This document shows positions 41,386-50,097 of a stretch of 64,000 nucleotides of DNA, piece by piece; position 1 is the stretch's first letter; each line of letters begins with the position of its first letter. The DNA is from Bradyrhizobium quebecense. GTDB lineage: Bacteria > Pseudomonadota > Alphaproteobacteria > Rhizobiales > Xanthobacteraceae. The stretch spans positions 5,518,001 to 5,582,000 of the forward strand of contig NZ_CP088022.1 in assembly GCF_013373795.3 (NCBI RefSeq). Direction: 5' to 3'. The position numbers were made by a program, and so were the translations under genes. The notes beneath the pieces are model-generated. The model was not told the origin of the DNA and searched no databases. It saw nothing but the letters and a program-made list of their open reading frames with translations.

Positions 41386-44300
41386 CTACTCCGGCCGGAT
41401 CAACGCCACCACGTCGCCCGCGCGCAGCGTTTGTCCGGGCTTGACCTGCACCGACGCAATGCGGCCCGCGCTCGGCGAATGCACTGATATCTCCATCTTC
41501 ATGGACTCGATGATGGCCAGCACGTCACCGGCTGCGACCACGGCGCCCTCCTCGACCAGGATCTTCCAGATATTGCCGGGCACCTCCGAGAATGCGCCGA
41601 TCTGGCCATCGGGAATGCCGGTCGCGACGGCACTTGCATCGATCGATTCTGCCGGCGTCTCGTCGAGCTTCATCTCGCGCCAGCGCTGGCGCTCGGCATC
41701 GAACGCGGCCTGCTGCGTCGCCTTGAACGCGGCGATCGACAGCCGCGCTTCGGCCAAGGACTTCGCATAGTCGGCGTAGGAGAACTCGCCCTCTTCGATC
41801 CTGATGCCGTATTGGCCGTGCGGGAATGCAGCGCGGGCGTCGAGCAGTTCGTCGGCGTCGACCGGGAAGAAGCGTATCTTGTCGAAGAACCGCAGCAGCC
41901 AGGGATGGCCAGGCTCGAACACCCGCGTGGTGCGCCAAGTGTTCCAGACCTGGATGGTGCGGCCGAACAGCTGGTAGCCGCCCGGACCTTCCATGCCGTA
42001 GATGCACATATAGGCGCCGCCGATGCCGACCGCGTTCTCCGGCGTCCAGGTCCGCGCCGGGTTGTACTTCGTGGTCACCAGCCGGTGCCGCGGGTCGAGC
42101 GGGGTCGCCACCGGCGCGCCGAGATAGACGTCGCCAAGGCCGAGCACGAAATAATCCGCGTCGAACACGATGCGGCGGACGTCGTCCTCACTGCCGAGCC
42201 CGTTGATGCGCCGGATGAACTCGACATTCGACGGACACCACGGCGCATCCGCACGGACCAGCTCCTGATACTTGCGCATCGCAAGCTCGGCTTCCGGATC
42301 GCGCCACGACAGCGGCAGATGCACGGTCCGGCTCGGCACCCGCATCGCATCGACCGGCGGCAGTTCACGCTCGGTCCGCCGCAGCACATCGAGCAGCTTC
42401 GTTCGCGACAGCGCCGTGCCGTCATAATGGATCTGCAACGAGCGAATGCCGGGCGTGAGGTCGATCAGGTCGCCAAGCTTCGCTTCCTCCAGCGCCTGCG
42501 CCAGCACATGCACGCGCAGCCGCAGCGCAATGTCGAGCTCCATTGGACCATATTCGACCAACAGATTGTCATCGCCGGCGCGCCGATACACCACCGGGAT
42601 CGGGCCATCATCATTGCGCCCGACGATCGCCGCGCCGAGTTCGGGCGCGCGCAGCACAGTAGGGCCGGCAACCGGATCGTCGCGTTTCACCGGAACGAAC
42701 CGAACCGTGTCGCCAGGCCGGAGCTGGCCGATCTTCCAGAGCTCGTCGCGCGCGACGACCGCCGGACAGACGAAGCCGCCGAGACTCGGTCCGTCGGGGC
42801 CGAGAATGATCGGCATGTCGCCGGTAAAATCGATCGAGCCGACCGCATAGGCGTTGTCATGAATGTTCGACGGATGCAGCCCGGCCTCGCCGCCATCGGC
42901 GCGGGCCCAGCGCGGCTTCGGACCGATCAGCCGCACACCGGTGCGGGCGCTGTTAAAATGCACTTCGTAGCTCGCCGCGAACAGCGTTTCGATGTCCTCG
43001 TCGAGGAAGAAGTCGGGCGCACCATGCGGGCCGTAGACGACACCGATCTGCCACGCCGATGCAAGCTGTGGCGGCTCGTCCTCCGTTGCGCGCCGCGGCG
43101 CCGCAAGATCTGACGGCTCGACACCGATATGCAGCACGTCGCCGGCCTTCAGCGAGCCCGTCGCATGGCCGCCGAACGCGCCGAGCGCGAACACGCCGCG
43201 CGATCCCAGGATCTCCGGCACATCAATGCCGCCACGCACGGCGAGATACGCGCGTTGGCCCGGGCCCTTGATGCTGCCGATGACGAGCGTCTGGCCTGCG
43301 CGTACCGCGACCGGCTCGTCATGGGCGACCTCGGCGCCCTCAAGCGATGCCTTCATCCGTGCGCCCGAGAGCGCGACGATCGCATCGGTGTTGAAGCGCA
43401 AGGTCGGCCCGTTGACCGTCAGCTCCAGCGCGGTCGTGGTTTCCGGATTTCCGACCACACAGTTGGCGACACGGAACGACCGCTCGTCCATCGGGCCGCT
43501 GGGCGGCACGCCGACATGCCAGAGATGCAGCCGGCCGGGCAATTCCTGCACGCCGCTCTGCGCACCCGGTGCGACGACGTCGATGGTGCGCGGGCGATAG
43601 GCGAAGGCGCCGAGCACGCTGGTCGCCACCTGCCCGCTGCGGAACACGTCAGACGCTGCGATCGCGCGGAGATAATCGAGATTGGTCTCGATGCCTGCAA
43701 CGATCGTGTCATCCAGCGCCTGCGCCAGCTTTGCGATCGCGGCCTCGCGCGTCTCGGCTGACACGATGATCTTGGCCAGCATCGGATCATAGAACGGCGA
43801 CACCTCGGTGCCAGTCTCGATCCAGCCGTCGATCCGCGCATCCGGCGAAAAGCTGACCTGCGTCAGCCGGCCCGCGCTCGGGCGAAAACTTGCGCCCGGG
43901 TTTTCGGCATAGAGCCGCACCTCGATCGACGCGCCCTTCGACGTCAGCGTGCCGGCCCTGCCGAGCACGTCCTCGCCGGCCGCCTGCCGGATCATCCATT
44001 CGACGAGGTCGACGCCAGTGACCTGCTCGGTGACGGGATGCTCGACCTGGAGGCGGGTGTTCACCTCGAGGAAATAGAAATCCTCGCGCGCGACGTCATA
44101 GATGAACTCCACCGTGCCGGCGGATTCATAAGCGACCGCCTTGCCGAGCGACACCGCGGCCGCGTGCAGCCGCCGCCTGATCTCGGCAGAGAGTCCGGGC
44201 GCGGGCGTCTCCTCAAAAACCTTCTGGTTGCGCCGCTGCAACGAGCAATCGCGTTCGCCGAGCGCGACCACATCGCCCCTGCCGTTGCCGAAGATCTGCA

Positions 44301-44928
44301 CCTCGATGTGGCGCGCCCGGGCGACGAACCGCTCGAGATAGACCCGGGCGTCGCCGAAGCTCGCCCGCGCCGTGCGCTGCACGGATTCAAAGCGTTCGCG
44401 CAGCGTCGCCATGTCGTGGCAGAGCTGCATGCCGATGCCGCCCCCGCCCGCTGTGCTTTTCAGCATCACCGGAAAGCCGATCGCTTCCGCCTGTTGCACC
44501 GCCTCGTCGATGGTCTCCAGCAGGCCGGAGCCCGGCAGCAGCGGCACGCCGCTGTTCTCGGCGATCTCGCGCGCACGGTGCTTGAGCCCGAAAGCGTCAA
44601 GGTGCTCCGGCCGCGGCCCGATGAATTTGATGCCGTACTCGGCGAGCCGTTCGGCAAAGCGGCGGTTCTCCGACAGGAAGCCGTAGCCGGGATGCACCGC
44701 CTGCGCGCCCGTCGCAAGACAGGCCGCCATGATCGCATCGACGTTGAGATAGCTCTCGGCCGCCGGCGCCGGACCAATGCGCACCGCCTCGTCGGCCTCG
44801 AGCACCGGCCGCGTGAAGCGGTCGGCATCGGAATAGACCGCGACAGACCCGATACCCATGCGGTGCAATGTTCTGCCGATCCGCCCGGCGATCTCGCCGC
44901 GGTTGGCAATCAGGACCTTGCTGAACAT
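41386..44928 (-). CDS. Urea-carboxylase-family enzyme, likely guanidine carboxylase
   Basis: The 1180-residue biotin enzyme has an N-terminal biotin carboxylase module (MFSKVLIANRGEIAGRIGR, ATP-grasp KSTAGGGGIGMQ, residues 1-450). A central carboxyltransferase module of KipI/KipA (urea-carboxylase) type follows, and a C-terminal biotinyl domain has ESMKMEIS with biotin-Lys near residue 1144. Family enzymes carboxylate urea or, as shown for riboswitch-linked members, guanidine, with ATP and bicarbonate. The operon's guanidine-I riboswitch points to guanidine. It is the last gene; no allophanate hydrolase follows in the window. Confidence 0.93.
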   Translation of the reverse strand: MFSKVLIANRGEIAGRIGRTLHRMGIGSVAVYSDADRFTRPVLEADEAVRIGPAPAAESYLNVDAIMAACLATGAQAVHPGYGFLSENRRFAERLAEYGIKFIGPRPEHLDAFGLKHRAREIAENSGVPLLPGSGLLETIDEAVQQAEAIGFPVMLKSTAGGGGIGMQLCHDMATLRERFESVQRTARASFGDARVYLERFVARARHIEVQIFGNGRGDVVALGERDCSLQRRNQKVFEETPAPGLSAEIRRRLHAAAVSLGKAVAYESAGTVEFIYDVAREDFYFLEVNTRLQVEHPVTEQVTGVDLVEWMIRQAAGEDVLGRAGTLTSKGASIEVRLYAENPGASFRPSAGRLTQVSFSPDARIDGWIETGTEVSPFYDPMLAKIIVSAETREAAIAKLAQALDDTIVAGIETNLDYLRAIAASDVFRSGQVATSVLGAFAYRPRTIDVVAPGAQSGVQELPGRLHLWHVGVPPSGPMDERSFRVANCVVGNPETTTALELTVNGPTLRFNTDAIVALSGARMKASLEGAEVAHDEPVAVRAGQTLVIGSIKGPGQRAYLAVRGGIDVPEILGSRGVFALGAFGGHATGSLKAGDVLHIGVEPSDLAAPRRATEDEPPQLASAWQIGVVYGPHGAPDFFLDEDIETLFAASYEVHFNSARTGVRLIGPKPRWARADGGEAGLHPSNIHDNAYAVGSIDFTGDMPIILGPDGPSLGGFVCPAVVARDELWKIGQLRPGDTVRFVPVKRDDPVAGPTVLRAPELGAAIVGRNDDGPIPVVYRRAGDDNLLVEYGPMELDIALRLRVHVLAQALEEAKLGDLIDLTPGIRSLQIHYDGTALSRTKLLDVLRRTERELPPVDAMRVPSRTVHLPLSWRDPEAELAMRKYQELVRADAPWCPSNVEFIRRINGLGSEDDVRRIVFDADYFVLGLGDVYLGAPVATPLDPRHRLVTTKYNPARTWTPENAVGIGGAYMCIYGMEGPGGYQLFGRTIQVWNTWRTTRVFEPGHPWLLRFFDKIRFFPVDADELLDARAAFPHGQYGIRIEEGEFSYADYAKSLAEARLSIAAFKATQQAAFDAERQRWREMKLDETPAESIDASAVATGIPDGQIGAFSEVPGNIWKILVEEGAVVAAGDVLAIIESMKMEISVHSPSAGRIASVQVKPGQTLRAGDVVALIRPE

Positions 44929-44931
44929 GCC

Positions 44932-45570
44932 TCACGCCTCCGGCACGAAGATCGTGACCTGCACCGGCGTCGGGAAGAAGCCGTTGCAGGGATTGTTGAT
45001 CTGCGGACAGTTCGAGATCAGGCACAGCACGTCCATCTCCGCGACCAGCTCGATCGCGTCACCGGGCTTGGAGACGCCGTCGACCACGGTGAAATTGCCG
45101 GCGGGATCGATCGGCACGTTCATGAAGAAGTTCAGGTTCGGCACGATGTCGCGCTTCGACATGCCGTACTTCGCGGCTTCGATCACGAAATTCTCGCGGC
45201 AGGCGTGCTGGTAGCGGGTCTGGTGCCCGAACCGCACGGTGTTGCTTTCGCAGGAGCAGGCGCCTGCGGAGGTATCGTGCAGGCCGCAACTATCAGCGGT
45301 GACGCGCAGCATCACGCGGCCTTCATTGGACATGATCCTGGTGCCGAGCCCGACATAGGCCGAGCCCTGCACGCGCAGCGTATCCTGGCCGCTGTAGCGC
45401 TCCTGATAGTCGTCGGCACGATAGAACAGCGTATCGACCGCCTGCTGGCCATGAGTGTCCGTGATCCGCAGCGTCTGCCCTTTGCGGATGATGGCCGACC
45501 ACGGCTTGCGCGCGGGAGTTTCCACGTCGAGAACGACGCGGCCACGGGTCTCAGCGGATTGCGTGGTCAT
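44932..45570 (-). CDS. DUF1989 protein, urea-amidolyase-associated protein 2; carboxyguanidine deiminase subunit type
   Basis: The 212-residue DUF1989 protein has conserved cysteine clusters (SCGLHDTSAGACSCESN and CPQINNPCNGFFPTPVQ) that bind metal in this family, and the FFMNVPIDPAGNF stretch. UAAP1/UAAP2 pairs beside such carboxylases are known to form a carboxyguanidine deiminase giving allophanate. The start at 45570 is set by an ATGA overlap with the UAAP1 gene; the carboxylase starts 3 nt after its stop. Confidence 0.88.
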   Translation of the reverse strand: MTTQSAETRGRVVLDVETPARKPWSAIIRKGQTLRITDTHGQQAVDTLFYRADDYQERYSGQDTLRVQGSAYVGLGTRIMSNEGRVMLRVTADSCGLHDTSAGACSCESNTVRFGHQTRYQHACRENFVIEAAKYGMSKRDIVPNLNFFMNVPIDPAGNFTVVDGVSKPGDAIELVAEMDVLCLISNCPQINNPCNGFFPTPVQVTIFVPEA

Positions 45571-46412
45571 CGCACGGCTCCTTCGCTCGTCTCGCCGAGA
45601 TACAGCGCATTGTTCTGAAAGGCGCGGATCGCCTCGGCGGTCGCGGTACGGCACAGATCATCGGCGTCGGGCTTGGCCGAGCGGTAGCGCACGATCTCCA
45701 CGCTCGCCTGCGGATAGCTTTCCGCCGGATCGAGCGAATGCGGACAGTTCGACAACGCAATCAGCAGGTCCATCTCCGCGCGCAGATCGACAAAATCACC
45801 CTTTTGCCGGCGCGCGTCGGACCAGACAAACTTGCCGCCCGCGTCGATCGCGACCGGCGCAAAGAAGCTGACGCAGGGATGCACGTCGCGGCGATCGAGT
45901 CCGAGCTTGGCCGCGGCGAGGATGAAATTGTCGCGCGTATTGCGGAAATTCCCTTCGCCATACTTGGCCAGGTTGGTCGCCGCAGTCGAGCCGCCGACCA
46001 CCGCATCATGCGCAGCGCTGCTGTCCTCGGTGATGCCGAGCAGCGCGCGCCCCATGTCCGAGAGCAGCACGCGCCCCTTCTGCAGCCGGGCCGCCCACTG
46101 CACCTTGATGGTGTCGGCGTGGTTGAGCCGCTCGGTGGTGTCGGCGCTGTTCCAGGCGAGCAGGCTGACGGTCGATGTCCCCGAACTGTTGACGATACGC
46201 AGCGTATCGCCGCGGTTCAGCCGCGTGGTCCAGTACCAGCCGGCCGGAATCACCTCGCGATGGATGATCGCGTCGGTGGCGATCGGCGCAGCGTCGCGCG
46301 CGGTCGGCGCCGGCAGCGCCCGCGGCGCATGCTCCTGCCCCGCTGCTTTCAACTCATTGTAGCGTCGGGTATGCACCGCGATCTCGGCCTTCTGTTCCTC
46401 TGTGAGGATCAT
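45567..46412 (-). CDS. DUF1989 protein, urea-amidolyase-associated protein 1; carboxyguanidine deiminase subunit type
   Basis: The 281-residue protein is paralogous to the next gene, with EVIPAGWYWTTRLNRGDTLRI, GNFRNTRDNFILAAAKLGLD and SFFAPVAIDAGGKF. It lacks the dense cysteine cluster of its partner, keeping CPHSLDP, so it is probably the non-catalytic or complementary half of a heterodimer. It overlaps the ATPase gene upstream and UAAP2 downstream, both by ATGA. Confidence 0.88.
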   Translation of the reverse strand: MILTEEQKAEIAVHTRRYNELKAAGQEHAPRALPAPTARDAAPIATDAIIHREVIPAGWYWTTRLNRGDTLRIVNSSGTSTVSLLAWNSADTTERLNHADTIKVQWAARLQKGRVLLSDMGRALLGITEDSSAAHDAVVGGSTAATNLAKYGEGNFRNTRDNFILAAAKLGLDRRDVHPCVSFFAPVAIDAGGKFVWSDARRQKGDFVDLRAEMDLLIALSNCPHSLDPAESYPQASVEIVRYRSAKPDADDLCRTATAEAIRAFQNNALYLGETSEGAVR

Positions 46413-47242
46413 GGTTGCTCCTTCAAGACGAGAGCGCCGGGCCGTCCCGGCTGATGCTCCGTGCCTGACCGGGTCGTCCCGATCGGAGCCGGTTGAACTG
46501 ATGACCGCGGCTCCGCGCTGCGGCGTGGGAAGATCTCGAGGTCGCGCGACACCGTGGCGCCATAGCGCTCGCGCTCCTCCGGCCGGTTGCGCTGCCGCTC
46601 CAGCGCGATTACGCGGGTCGCGAGCCCGAACGCCTCGCTGAGGTCGTGCGTCACCATCACGACCGTCAGATGGGTCTCGTTCCAGAGCCGCTTCATCAAC
46701 AGATGGATGTCGGCGCGAATCCCCGGATCGAGCGCGCCGAACGGCTCGTCGAGCAGCAGGATTTTCGGCCCGCGCATGATCGCCTGCGCCAGCGCGAGCC
46801 GCTGCTGCATGCCGCCCGACAGCGCCGACGGATATTTGCTCTCCTGACCGGCGAGCCCGACCTCGGCGAGTAGCTTCATGGCGTCGTCGGTGGCGGCGCG
46901 CCGCGCGGCGCCGAACAGCCGGGCCGTGAATTTGGCGTCGCGCAGTTCGCAGCCGAGCATGACGTTCTGCAAGACGGTCAGATGCGGAAACACCGAGTAG
47001 CGCTGGAACACCACGCCGCGATCGGCATCCGGCTCGGCGCGCAACGGCTTGCCGTCGACCATGATCTGGCCGCGGCTCGGCTGCTCCTCGCCGAGCAGCA
47101 TCCGCAGCAGCGTGGTCTTGCCGCAACCGGACGGGCCGACCAGTGCAATGAAGGCGCGCGGCTCGACCTCCATCGTGATGCGCTCGAGCACGATGTGGTC
47201 GCCGTATTCCTTCCAGACGTCGTCGAACCGGATCGCGCTCAT
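46409..47242 (-). CDS. NitT/TauT-type ABC transporter ATPase (guanidine/urea locus)
   Basis: The 277-residue ATPase has Walker A GPSGCGKTT, Q-loop VFQRYSVFP, signature LSGGMQQRLALA, Walker B ILLLDEPFGALDP and switch His in VTHDLSEAFG. The arrangement is that of nitrate/sulfonate-type importers. About 60 C-terminal residues are Arg/Pro-rich and look disordered. GAGGG precedes ATG 47242, which overlaps the permease stop. Confidence 0.92.
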   Translation of the reverse strand: MSAIRFDDVWKEYGDHIVLERITMEVEPRAFIALVGPSGCGKTTLLRMLLGEEQPSRGQIMVDGKPLRAEPDADRGVVFQRYSVFPHLTVLQNVMLGCELRDAKFTARLFGAARRAATDDAMKLLAEVGLAGQESKYPSALSGGMQQRLALAQAIMRGPKILLLDEPFGALDPGIRADIHLLMKRLWNETHLTVVMVTHDLSEAFGLATRVIALERQRNRPEERERYGATVSRDLEIFPRRSAEPRSSVQPAPIGTTRSGTEHQPGRPGALVLKEQP

Positions 47243-48057
47243 TCCGCCCTCACCGAGGCAAACCAGGGAAATAGCCTGCGCTGCGTGACGCGCAGGCCGA
47301 CATCGATCAGGAACGCCAGCAGCGTGATCCAGGCGACGTAGGGGATGATGACGTCCATCGCGAGATAGCGGCGCACCAGGAAGATCCGATAGCCGAGCCC
47401 GGAATCCGAGGCGATAGCCTCGGCCGCGATCAGGAACAGCCAAGCCGGGCCGAGTTGCAGCCGCAGCACGTCGATCAGCCGCGGCAGGGTTTGCGGCATC
47501 GCGACGCGCAGCGCGATCTGCCAGGTCGAGGCGCCGAGCGTCTGCGCCTTGACGATCTGCTCGCGCGGCAGCTCCTGCACCTTCATGGCGAGGTCGCGGA
47601 TCATGCAGGGCAGCGTCCCGATCACGATCAGCGCAATCTTAGAATTCTCCCCCAACCCCATCACGATGAACAGGATCGGCAACAATGCCAGCGGCGGCAC
47701 CATCGAAGTCACCGACACGAACGGCCCGAGCAAGGCATTGGCGCCCGGCAACAGCCCGATCACGATACCAAGGACGAGCGCCGCCACCGTCGAGATCGCC
47801 AGCGCCGACCCCAGCCGCCCCAGGCTGGCGACGGTGTCGGAGGCCATCAGATAGCCTCCGGTGCGCGGATCGACCTCGAACGCCATCTGCTTGACCGCCT
47901 GCACCATGCTGGGCAGCGCCGGCAGCAGCTTGTCGTTCGGGTTTTGCGTGAGCCGCGCGCTGGAGCCGGCGAAGTAGGCGATTGCGACCAATACGAACGG
48001 CAGCGCGAGCAGATAGAATCGCGTCTGCCGTCCCGGCCGTATGTTCACAAGTCGCAT
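47239..48057 (-). CDS. NitT/TauT-type ABC permease (guanidine/urea locus)
   Basis: The 272-residue membrane protein has about six helices and the EAA loop around VKAQTLGASTWQIALRVAMP that docks to the ATPase, typical of SsuC/TauC-like permeases. It starts with AGGAGC upstream and overlaps the ATPase gene by ATGA. The binding-protein gene is 46 bp upstream. Confidence 0.92.
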   Translation of the reverse strand: MRLVNIRPGRQTRFYLLALPFVLVAIAYFAGSSARLTQNPNDKLLPALPSMVQAVKQMAFEVDPRTGGYLMASDTVASLGRLGSALAISTVAALVLGIVIGLLPGANALLGPFVSVTSMVPPLALLPILFIVMGLGENSKIALIVIGTLPCMIRDLAMKVQELPREQIVKAQTLGASTWQIALRVAMPQTLPRLIDVLRLQLGPAWLFLIAAEAIASDSGLGYRIFLVRRYLAMDVIIPYVAWITLLAFLIDVGLRVTQRRLFPWFASVRAE

Positions 48058-48103: not shown

Positions 48104-49177
48104 TCAGAGCTTGCCCTTGGCGGCTTCGTCCATGTAGGTCGGGTCGAAGCGCAGCTTGACGTTCGACTTGTCGCCCAGCACCGACTTGTCGGCGAGCTCG
48201 ATCCCGACCGCGTCGACCGACTTCGCGCCCTTGCCGAGCAGGTCCTTCTCGAACAGGAACTTGCGGACGCGGTCCATGGTCACGCCGATGGTCCGGCTGC
48301 GCGTAAACGCTTCGGCGTCGGTTGCCTTGTCGAACAGTTTTGTGGTCGAGAGCTGGCTGTCGAAGCCGGCAAGGTCGGTGCCGGATGCCTTCGCCATCGC
48401 CTCCTTGGCGGCCTTCGCGGCGGGATCGTTCGCCGTCATCTTGGACAGCGTCTCGTACCAGATGCCGACCAGCGCCTTGGCGAAATCCGGATTGTCCTTG
48501 GCGACCGCGGTGTTGACCACCATCAGGTCCATGATCTCGCCGGGGATCTGCGAGGAGTCGAACACCTTCTTGGCGTCAGGTGAGCCAAGGATTTCGGTCA
48601 CGATCGGATTCCAGGTCACGACCGCGTTGACGTCGGGCGTCTTGTAGGCGGCGGCGATATCGGCATCGGAGGTGTTGACGACCTTGACGTCCTTCTCGCT
48701 CAGCTTGCTGGTCTCGAGCGCACGTGCCAGCAGATAGTGCGACACCGAGAATTCGACCAGATTGACCGTCTGTCCCTCGATCGCGGCCAGATCCGACTTG
48801 TTCTTGAGGATCACGGCATCGTTGCCGTTGGAGAAATCACCCATCACGACCGCGGTGGTGTCGACACCGCCTGCCGCCGGAATCGACAGCGCGTCCATGT
48901 TGGTGATGGTGACGGCATCATAGCCGCCGGCGGTGTACTGGTTGATCGATTCAACGTAGTCGTTGAACTGCTTGACCTCGATCGTGATGCCGTATTTGTC
49001 GGCCCACTTCTTGACGATGCCGGTGTCGGCCGCATAGCCCCACGGCATCCACCCGACATAGATCGACCAGGCGACCTTGAAGCTTTTCTTCGGTGCGGCG
49101 TCAGCGACGGATGCGGCCGCGAGCACGATCGCGCAGCCGGTGACAACAGAGCGGAGGAAGAAAGAGAACTTGTTCAT
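48104..49177 (-). CDS. NitT/TauT-type substrate-binding protein (putative guanidine/urea binding)
   Basis: The 357-residue exported protein has a signal peptide (FFLRSVVTGCAIVLAAASVADA, cut near ADA-AP) and a type II periplasmic-binding core (KVAWSIYVGWMPWGYAADTG, aromatic-rich around residue 40). It is often annotated as a urea-type binding protein. GAGGGAT precedes ATG 49177. It is the first gene after the guanidine-I riboswitch, so guanidine or a guanidino compound is the best ligand guess. Confidence 0.9.
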   Translation of the reverse strand: MNKFSFFLRSVVTGCAIVLAAASVADAAPKKSFKVAWSIYVGWMPWGYAADTGIVKKWADKYGITIEVKQFNDYVESINQYTAGGYDAVTITNMDALSIPAAGGVDTTAVVMGDFSNGNDAVILKNKSDLAAIEGQTVNLVEFSVSHYLLARALETSKLSEKDVKVVNTSDADIAAAYKTPDVNAVVTWNPIVTEILGSPDAKKVFDSSQIPGEIMDLMVVNTAVAKDNPDFAKALVGIWYETLSKMTANDPAAKAAKEAMAKASGTDLAGFDSQLSTTKLFDKATDAEAFTRSRTIGVTMDRVRKFLFEKDLLGKGAKSVDAVGIELADKSVLGDKSNVKLRFDPTYMDEAAKGKL

Positions 49178-49203: not shown

Positions 49204-49245
49204 AAAAAGGGACTGGCGAAAAGACCATCGCTCCGCCAATCCCTT
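49204..49245 (-). terminator. Riboswitch-controlled intrinsic terminator
   Basis: On the minus strand AAGGGATTGGCG pairs with CGCCAGTCCC and is followed by CCTTTTTG, forming a stem of about 11 bp with one mismatch and a U-tract. It sits 7 nt after the riboswitch 3' end and 27 nt before the binding-protein start. Termination without guanidine, and antitermination with it, is the expected mode. Confidence 0.85.
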
Positions 49246-49251
49246 GGCTAA

Positions 49252-49360
49252 CGAGGTCTCCCGGGCTTTTATCCCGCCGTGCACCTGCGGGGATGTCTCC
49301 CCCGCAAGCGGCTGCTCTCGGACCAGCACCTTGCTTCGCAAGATCGGAACCCTAGCGGCC
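49252..49360 (-). promoter_or_regulatory. Guanidine-I (ykkC) riboswitch
   Basis: The minus strand carries the conserved ykkC blocks in order: GCTAGGGTTCCG, CTGGTCCGAGAGC, then ACGGCGGGATAAAAGCCCGG followed by GAGA. The conserved segments and the hairpins between them match the guanidine-I class closely. It precedes a terminator and an operon of ABC transporter, UAAP1/2 and urea/guanidine carboxylase, which is the classic gene context of this riboswitch. Confidence 0.95.
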
Positions 49361-49376
49361 AACTCAGCGCCATTGA

Positions 49377-49392
49377 TGCACGAGGCGTGCCA
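49377..49392 (-). promoter_or_regulatory. Sigma-54 (RpoN) promoter candidate for the guanidine operon
   Basis: On the minus strand TGGCACG-N4-GTGCA differs from the TGGCACG-N4-TTGCA consensus at one base and has the required GG-N10-GC spacing. The -12 element ends at 49378, placing the start point near 49366, just before the riboswitch at 49360. This would tie the operon to nitrogen status. Confidence 0.7.
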
Positions 49393-49406: not shown

Positions 49407-49422
49407 GAATCTCATGAGATTC
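49407..49422. promoter_or_regulatory. 16-bp perfect palindrome upstream of the sigma-54 promoter
   Basis: GAATCTCATGAGATTC is a perfect palindrome 14 bp upstream of the -24 element, enclosed by GGCGC/GCGCC arms. It may be a regulator site or a hairpin. It is not the NtrC consensus. Confidence 0.5.
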
Positions 49423-50097
49423 TTTGGCGCGGGTCGCGTCGCAACAATGGCCGCTTGCTCAAAAACTACGCAGGCCTGCCCAGAAATGGCTCTGTCATTT
49501 CGCCGGTGACATCAGCAGGATCAGGCCAAAGCTAATGTCGAGGGGATGTTCGGTGCGCAAGCTTTTGAGTGCCCTGTGCGACGGCCTCTGGCGCGGCCTG
49601 CATGGCCGCTACGGCCTGGCGCCGCGATGCGACGTAGGCAGTCCAAACAAGCGAACCGTCAGGCCTTTGCTATCTACCAACCCATGAATTTTGCTCGTCG
49701 AGCCGGCACGCCCGCACGGCAAGAATTCAATTTGGCGGCAGCATGCTCGAACCTGGGGCTCGCAGATCGAACGACGGAGAATCCGCTCTCGCGCTCAGGC
49801 CGCCAAACGTGAGGCTTGCCGGGCATTGGGATTACCCCCTCTGAGCCGATCAGCGTCCGCTTGCTGGCAGAAACTTCTTTGATTGGTTTGGCCGTAAGAT
49901 CAGCTTCGGGAATTGGCGGCCAGTCCGCATCCCCGAAGCGTGGCCCCGCGGAAGATCTAGCAATCTGGGACTTGTAGGGCTCTCGATCCGCTGTCATGCT
50001 GGAGCATGCGGAACTCGCATGGCTGCCACCCAAAAAAGGGCGGCATCACCATAAGCAGGGGCGAACCAACGCACCGGTTTTTGGGATCGAGACCGAC
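49423..50097. other. 675-bp stretch without a recognisable gene
   Basis: Short open frames on both strands have no recognisable protein pattern and no good ribosome binding site. The stretch should contain the upstream activator region for the minus-strand guanidine operon and the promoter of the plus-strand acyl-CoA ligase operon. No clear NtrC-type site is visible. A decayed gene remains possible. Confidence 0.4.

Follow-up and report, generated by a model that had tools for sequence, protein, structure and literature searches.

The window, which is the entire 64,000-nucleotide stretch of DNA analyzed, contains an operon located on the minus strand and preceded by a Guanidine-I riboswitch aptamer (RF00442; positions 49256 to 49366, minus strand; 93.1 bits for a cut-off of 63). 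The interval between the aptamer and the first gene harbors an intrinsic terminator hairpin assigned to the expression platform (49207 to 49245, minus strand), which comprises a 15-bp stem and a T run. This hairpin was missed by a simple terminator consensus scan and was revealed by folding (−27.2 kcal/mol; z of −2.9). The genes of the operon, all on the minus strand, encode the substrate-binding protein of a guanidine ('urea') ABC transporter (48104 to 49177; TIGR03427, 552.9 bits for a cut-off of 333.9), an ABC transporter permease (47239 to 48057; best matches to TauC, SaoP, and SsuC, all under the cut-offs), an ABC transporter ATPase (46409 to 47242; a scanned piece of 225 residues matched ABC ATPases, all those shown being under the cut-offs), UAAP1 (45567 to 46412; TIGR03425, 286.4 bits for a cut-off of 205.95), UAAP2 (44932 to 45570; TIGR03424, 325.2 bits for a cut-off of 284.7), and a 'urea' carboxylase of 1180 residues (41386 to 44928; TIGR02712, 1819.4 bits for a cut-off of 1303.85). 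A Guanidine-II riboswitch (RF01068; 46437 to 46485, minus strand; 43.4 bits for a cut-off of 32) covers the final codons of the gene for the ATPase, directly 5' of the gene encoding UAAP1.

We take UAAP1 and UAAP2 to be the subunits of carboxyguanidine deiminase, according to their published role. The context identifies the 'urea' carboxylase as a guanidine carboxylase, guanidine being the predicted substrate. The gene content is that of a guanidine carboxylase operon, with genes for an ABC transporter, UAAP1, UAAP2, and the carboxylase, and with an allophanate hydrolase gene elsewhere in the genome (806.9 bits). The operon is thus predicted to encode guanidine uptake and the carboxylase route of guanidine degradation. 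Binding of guanidine by the Guanidine-I aptamer of the window, and the resulting gene activation, are expected from the riboswitch family and from the adjoining carboxylase operon.

Upstream from the aptamer, the sequence TGGCACGCCTCGTGCA (49377 to 49392, minus strand) resembles a sigma-54 (−24/−12) promoter element. The first-pass annotation had described TGGCACG-N4-GTGCA at this position as a near-consensus promoter with one mismatch and an exact GG-N10-GC spacing. Both points were confirmed, since comparison with TGGCAYR-N4-TTGCW revealed a single mismatch, a G replacing the first T of TTGC, in the context of the correct spacing for a sigma-54 promoter. With the C of the −12 element at 49378, the spacing predicts a transcription start 12 nt after this residue, at position 49366 on the minus strand (± about 2 nt). 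The Guanidine-I match of Rfam begins at this very base, which lies 6 nt before the first paired base of the aptamer, in agreement with the annotated distance of about 6 nt between the start and the riboswitch. The transcript should therefore start with the aptamer. Taken alone, the motif match is weak evidence, not above chance: 26 matches with at most two mismatches were found in the window for 24.8 expected from shuffled sequence. In the whole genome, 240 sites with at most one mismatch were detected versus 156 for a reversed control pattern, and 36 elements matched the consensus exactly. Because the number of near-matches in the window was close to that expected by chance, the test of the promoter was its conservation at a fixed place.

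Guanidine-I aptamers were searched with RF00442 in 295 relatives (match in 69 genomes, above the Rfam cut-off in 54) and in a phylum-wide sample of 398 genomes (match in 43, above the cut-off in 41). Duplicates between the two samples were counted once, and the examination covered 107 aptamers scoring above the cut-off plus 14 scoring below it, which excludes six of the 76 matches obtained from the relatives, all of them sub-threshold. A sigma-54 element with at most one mismatch was present within 100 nt upstream from the aptamer at 92 of the 107 above-cut-off loci; among background windows of equal length, the count was 14 of 6374 (0.22%). The conservation in related genomes that had been proposed as a check of the promoter was therefore observed. 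Allowing two mismatches increased the count to 96, leaving 11 loci without the element instead of 15. At the one-mismatch threshold, the element was found at 34/34 loci in the genus of the window, 0/1 in the remainder of the family, 22/27 in the order, 1/5 in the class, and 35/40 in the rest of the phylum. Since related genomes are not independent, medians were also computed per genus: 31 of 45 genus groups had zero or one mismatch (30 of the 42 with a homologue of the operon downstream and one of the three without).

The geometry of the element was equally constrained. The pattern TGGCAY-N6-YGC occurred at 93 of the 107 loci, any other spacer (N2 to N11) at zero to eight, and the opposite strand provided no match. 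Among 45 representatives, which were picked by motif match, TGGCA was identical in all and the GC of the −12 element was present in 44, with mixed flanks. The distance between the C of the −12 element and the aptamer was 11 to 15 nt in the class of the window and 35 to 85 nt in the remaining phylum sample. A composite pattern combining the sigma-54 element and the conserved start of the aptamer was also run over genomes of named species and detected at least 119 stretches, the matches listed including Rhizobium, Mesorhizobium, Azospirillum, Devosia, Acinetobacter, and Solimonas. An Rfam scan of 18 of these stretches identified Guanidine-I in all 18 and, additionally, Guanidine-II in eight. Short spacing also occurs outside the class of the window, since a hand check gave 15 to 18 nt for two loci from Acinetobacter and one from Solimonas (L075, L080, and L106). 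Records entitled Mycobacterium sp. KBS0706 and Anaerolineae MAG (L127 and L193) also matched the composite pattern and are likely to correspond to mislabelled, contaminating, or transferred DNA.

Natural controls were provided by the 14 weaker ykkC-like RNAs scoring below the Rfam cut-off. None of them was preceded by a sigma-54 element, the best candidate having three mismatches, and 13 of the 14 were followed in 3' by a homologue of one EamA transporter. These RNAs (L058 to L070 and L247) scored 42 to 58 bits. Fifty-seven genomes outside the genus of the window had an aptamer above the cut-off. Two of them had no rpoN match, one had rpoN in two pieces, and one had only lower-scoring rpoN matches; the element was absent from all four. 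The association between absence of rpoN and absence of the element had a p value of 0.057 for the two rpoN-less genomes alone and of 0.0025 for the four genomes, a grouping made after the data were seen. In genome G338, rpoN was found as two overlapping pieces, as after a frameshift, and the Guanidine-I locus had no element. Together, the conservation, spacing, and strand of the element and its absence from the natural negative controls strongly support, on comparative grounds, the conclusion that the sigma-54 promoter is real.

In the 9.17-Mb genome, one Sigma54_DBD match (234.1 bits) identified rpoN, ntrC was identified by TIGR01818 (751.8 bits for a cut-off of 558.6), and several further NtrC-like proteins are encoded. 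One P-II gene is preceded by a one-mismatch sigma-54 element and, 160 bp further upstream, by a one-mismatch NtrC dyad; the second P-II gene has a one-mismatch element only, and the third has neither. The allophanate hydrolase gene, which has two candidate in-frame start codons, is preceded by an exact sigma-54 element, the first base of which lies 85 nt upstream from the GTG and 52 nt upstream from the ATG. No Rfam match was found near the latter element.

NtrC-activated promoters have TGCAC-N7-GTGCA-type binding sites upstream. In the window, the candidate dyad TGCGTAGTTTTTGAGCA (49456 to 49472, minus strand), centered near −98, is degenerate, as it deviates from this motif at 3 of 10 positions and misses the two-mismatch threshold. 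The evidence for NtrC at this locus is thus by kinship. Dyads with at most two mismatches, searched 20 to 220 bp upstream from the sigma-54 element, were found at 39 of 92 loci versus 5.9% in the background, and at 19 of the 45 representatives versus 31 of 578 background windows (5.4%; p = 2.5 × 10^−11), leaving 26 representatives without a dyad at this threshold. Among the representatives, spacers of 5 or 6 led to no enrichment. Three other controls were raised to various extents: a spacer of 8 slightly (6/45 versus 4.8%; p = 0.03), swapped half-sites more clearly (10/45 versus 6.1%; p = 0.0007), and a spacer of 9 at 22% of loci versus 12% in the background. In the genus of the window, nine loci had the dyad centered near −98, and others had it near −76 or −116. 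NtrC is therefore the probable activator, and nitrogen limitation the probable signal of the RpoN layer, as judged from the sequences.

An alternative is that the sigma-54 promoter is real but depends upon an enhancer-binding protein other than NtrC (NifA or a local regulator), in which case the first signal would not be general nitrogen limitation. The additional NtrC-like proteins, the 36 exact sigma-54 elements of the genome, and the degenerate dyad of the window are compatible with this alternative. A further argument comes from a Caballeronia record, in which a sigma-54-interacting regulator is encoded a few genes upstream from the operon. The plasmid in question, from the family of Burkholderia cenocepacia, carries like-named genes (encoding an ABC transporter, UAAP1, UAAP2, and the carboxylase) and also counts in favor of the preferred interpretation below, as the sigma-54 element TGGCACGCTTATCGCA is located 35 nt before Guanidine-I and Guanidine-II lies before the carboxylase gene. 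Against the alternative, NifA sites (TGT-N10-ACA) were present at only two of the 45 representatives, which is not above background and argues against NifA as the activator, whereas correctly spaced NtrC dyads were enriched. Likewise, no gene for an enhancer-binding protein was recognized by eye among the open reading frames listed around the operon of the window. Finally, in B. cenocepacia H111, genes I35_7283 to I35_7286, encoding a 'urea carboxylase' and a related ABC transporter, are reported to be NtrC-dependent under nitrogen limitation in the available part of the article, with a log2 change of −6.0 for the carboxylase gene in the ntrC mutant and 'na' for two others owing to the read number in the mutant (PMC5491218). 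We therefore consider an activator other than NtrC unlikely.

The interval between the promoter and the putative enhancer contains a perfect 16-bp palindrome, GAATCTCATGAGATTC (49407 to 49422), centered near −48. It was conserved with changes in the nearest relatives, the right half being better kept than the left. A role as a genome-wide regulator site was discarded since the genome contains only one copy at a threshold of one mismatch, and a resemblance to IHF sites, considered by eye, was not established.

It could also be proposed that transcription mainly originates from an unrecognized sigma-70 promoter, the sigma-54 site adding little and the riboswitch exerting the real control. Such a design exists for the weaker ykkC-like RNAs, since a TTGAC box was present within 80 nt upstream at 12 of the 14 loci. 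In addition, outside the genus of the window, 10 genomes at one mismatch and six at two mismatches lack the element despite an ordinary rpoN. However, no sigma-70-like promoter was detected between positions 46300 and 49900 in a crude consensus scan for which only 0.6 match was expected by chance, and the sigma-54 element is retained in 31 genera. This explanation is accordingly highly improbable. The probability that the match is a chance resemblance is negligible, as the near-chance number of matches in the window is outweighed by the conservation, the fixed spacing, the strand, and the controls, which contradict it.

Our preferred interpretation, to which we assign a probability of roughly 0.8, is that a sigma-54 promoter opens the operon at the Guanidine-I aptamer, thereby generating an AND gate responding to nitrogen shortage via RpoN, most likely with phosphorylated NtrC, and to guanidine. 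RNA polymerase containing RpoN would remain in a closed complex that only an enhancer-binding protein can open. This protein would most likely be phosphorylated NtrC, made under nitrogen limitation and binding about 100 bp upstream. The first bases of the transcript would be those of the aptamer. According to the known behavior of this riboswitch class, the terminator hairpin located between the aptamer and the first gene would stop the transcript in the absence of guanidine, and the presence of guanidine would allow read-through into the genes encoding the transporter, the carboxyguanidine deiminase, and the guanidine carboxylase. The operon would thus be on only when nitrogen shortage coincides with the presence of guanidine. 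Since the promoter is followed by an intact riboswitch and, behind it, by a terminator hairpin, this logic is the natural reading of the locus. The first-pass annotation had proposed a combination of RpoN, as a sensor of nitrogen limitation, and guanidine: the promoter, the riboswitch, and the terminator support the two-layer logic, whereas the link to nitrogen limitation through NtrC is probable only.

The mode of action of the riboswitch may differ between genera. Hairpins resembling the terminator of the window were present in some relatives, and a U-run terminator at −15 kcal/mol or better was found at 8 of the 42 loci tested versus 4 of 252 in the background. A single terminator common to all genera was not found, and the riboswitch may therefore act on translation elsewhere.

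More generally, we regard it as likely that guanidine assimilation in much of the Pseudomonadota is controlled by a conserved coincidence detector consisting of a sigma-54/NtrC promoter at or near a guanidine riboswitch, and that the 'urea carboxylase' genes of published regulons are mostly guanidine genes. In the class of the window, the promoter would be locked to the aptamer and the messenger would begin with it, the riboswitch reporting on the substrate and the promoter on nitrogen hunger. If assimilation operons are headed by a nitrogen-control promoter, the cells would use guanidine as a nutrient under nitrogen shortage. In the available part of a 2025 review, the physiological role of guanidine sensing was termed elusive (PMC12186494). 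The AND gate is a two-input circuit amenable to direct testing. Guanidine riboswitches of this kind may seem silent in ammonium-rich media, in which the promoter is expected to be off.

Several components of this circuit are already in the literature, where the name 'urea carboxylase' is used. The B. cenocepacia H111 operon, whose genes have like-named counterparts in the window, was interpreted as serving urea use in the available text (PMC5491218), and the AND gate may explain its presence in the NtrC regulon. Sigma-54 control has been predicted for COG3665 genes across bacteria in an article whose available text does not contain 'guanid' and contains 'riboswitch' in one reference title only (PMC12316311). 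In rpoN mutants of Bradyrhizobium sp. DOA9, expression of atzF and urea-transport genes was strongly decreased, with no occurrence of 'guanid' in the available text (PMC13207237). Conversely, the guanidine-carboxylase operon of Vreelandella boliviensis contains, as does that of the window, a Guanidine-I riboswitch at its start, a second guanidine riboswitch (Guanidine-II) inside, and the carboxylase route, although Guanidine-II is located differently in the window, in which it lies before the UAAP1 gene. Vreelandella uses guanidine as a nitrogen source, and expression of its operon, high on guanidine and low on ammonium, was ascribed to the two riboswitches; 'NtrC' does not occur and 'sigma' occurs once in the available text (PMC12508155). 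NtrC is not mentioned in the available part of PMC11410670 either. Searches for sigma-54 together with guanidine riboswitches or ykkC, in mostly open literature, identified no joint report among the best matches, as judged from titles and the beginning of abstracts. The suggestion that the combination had not been described therefore holds for the literature searched, whereas its parts were already known from the portions of these sources that were available: a like-named operon under NtrC control and COG3665 genes predicted to be controlled by sigma-54. What appears new, as far as this literature reaches, is the conserved coupling of known parts.

Guanidine-I aptamers were also found in other gene contexts. 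Among loci without the element, L042 and L043 have the aptamer directly before the UAAP genes, the genome of L043 containing a second Guanidine-I locus (L040) at which the element is present, and the aptamer of L237 precedes an amino-acid permease gene. At L220, in a genome containing rpoN (G377), Guanidine-I precedes a gene of the arginase (ureohydrolase) family and no sigma-54 element is present. In the genus of the window, L041, L045, L050, and L054 each have a nitroreductase-type gene, identified by Pfam for L041 and by eye for the three others, that is preceded by Guanidine-I and a mismatch-free sigma-54 element. An amino-acid-type binding protein is encoded next at L041 (Pfam), L050, and L054 (both by eye), and no homologue of the operon proteins of the window was found within the stretch searched at these three loci. 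The nitroreductase-type loci are possibly involved in the use of hydroxyguanidine or canavanine.
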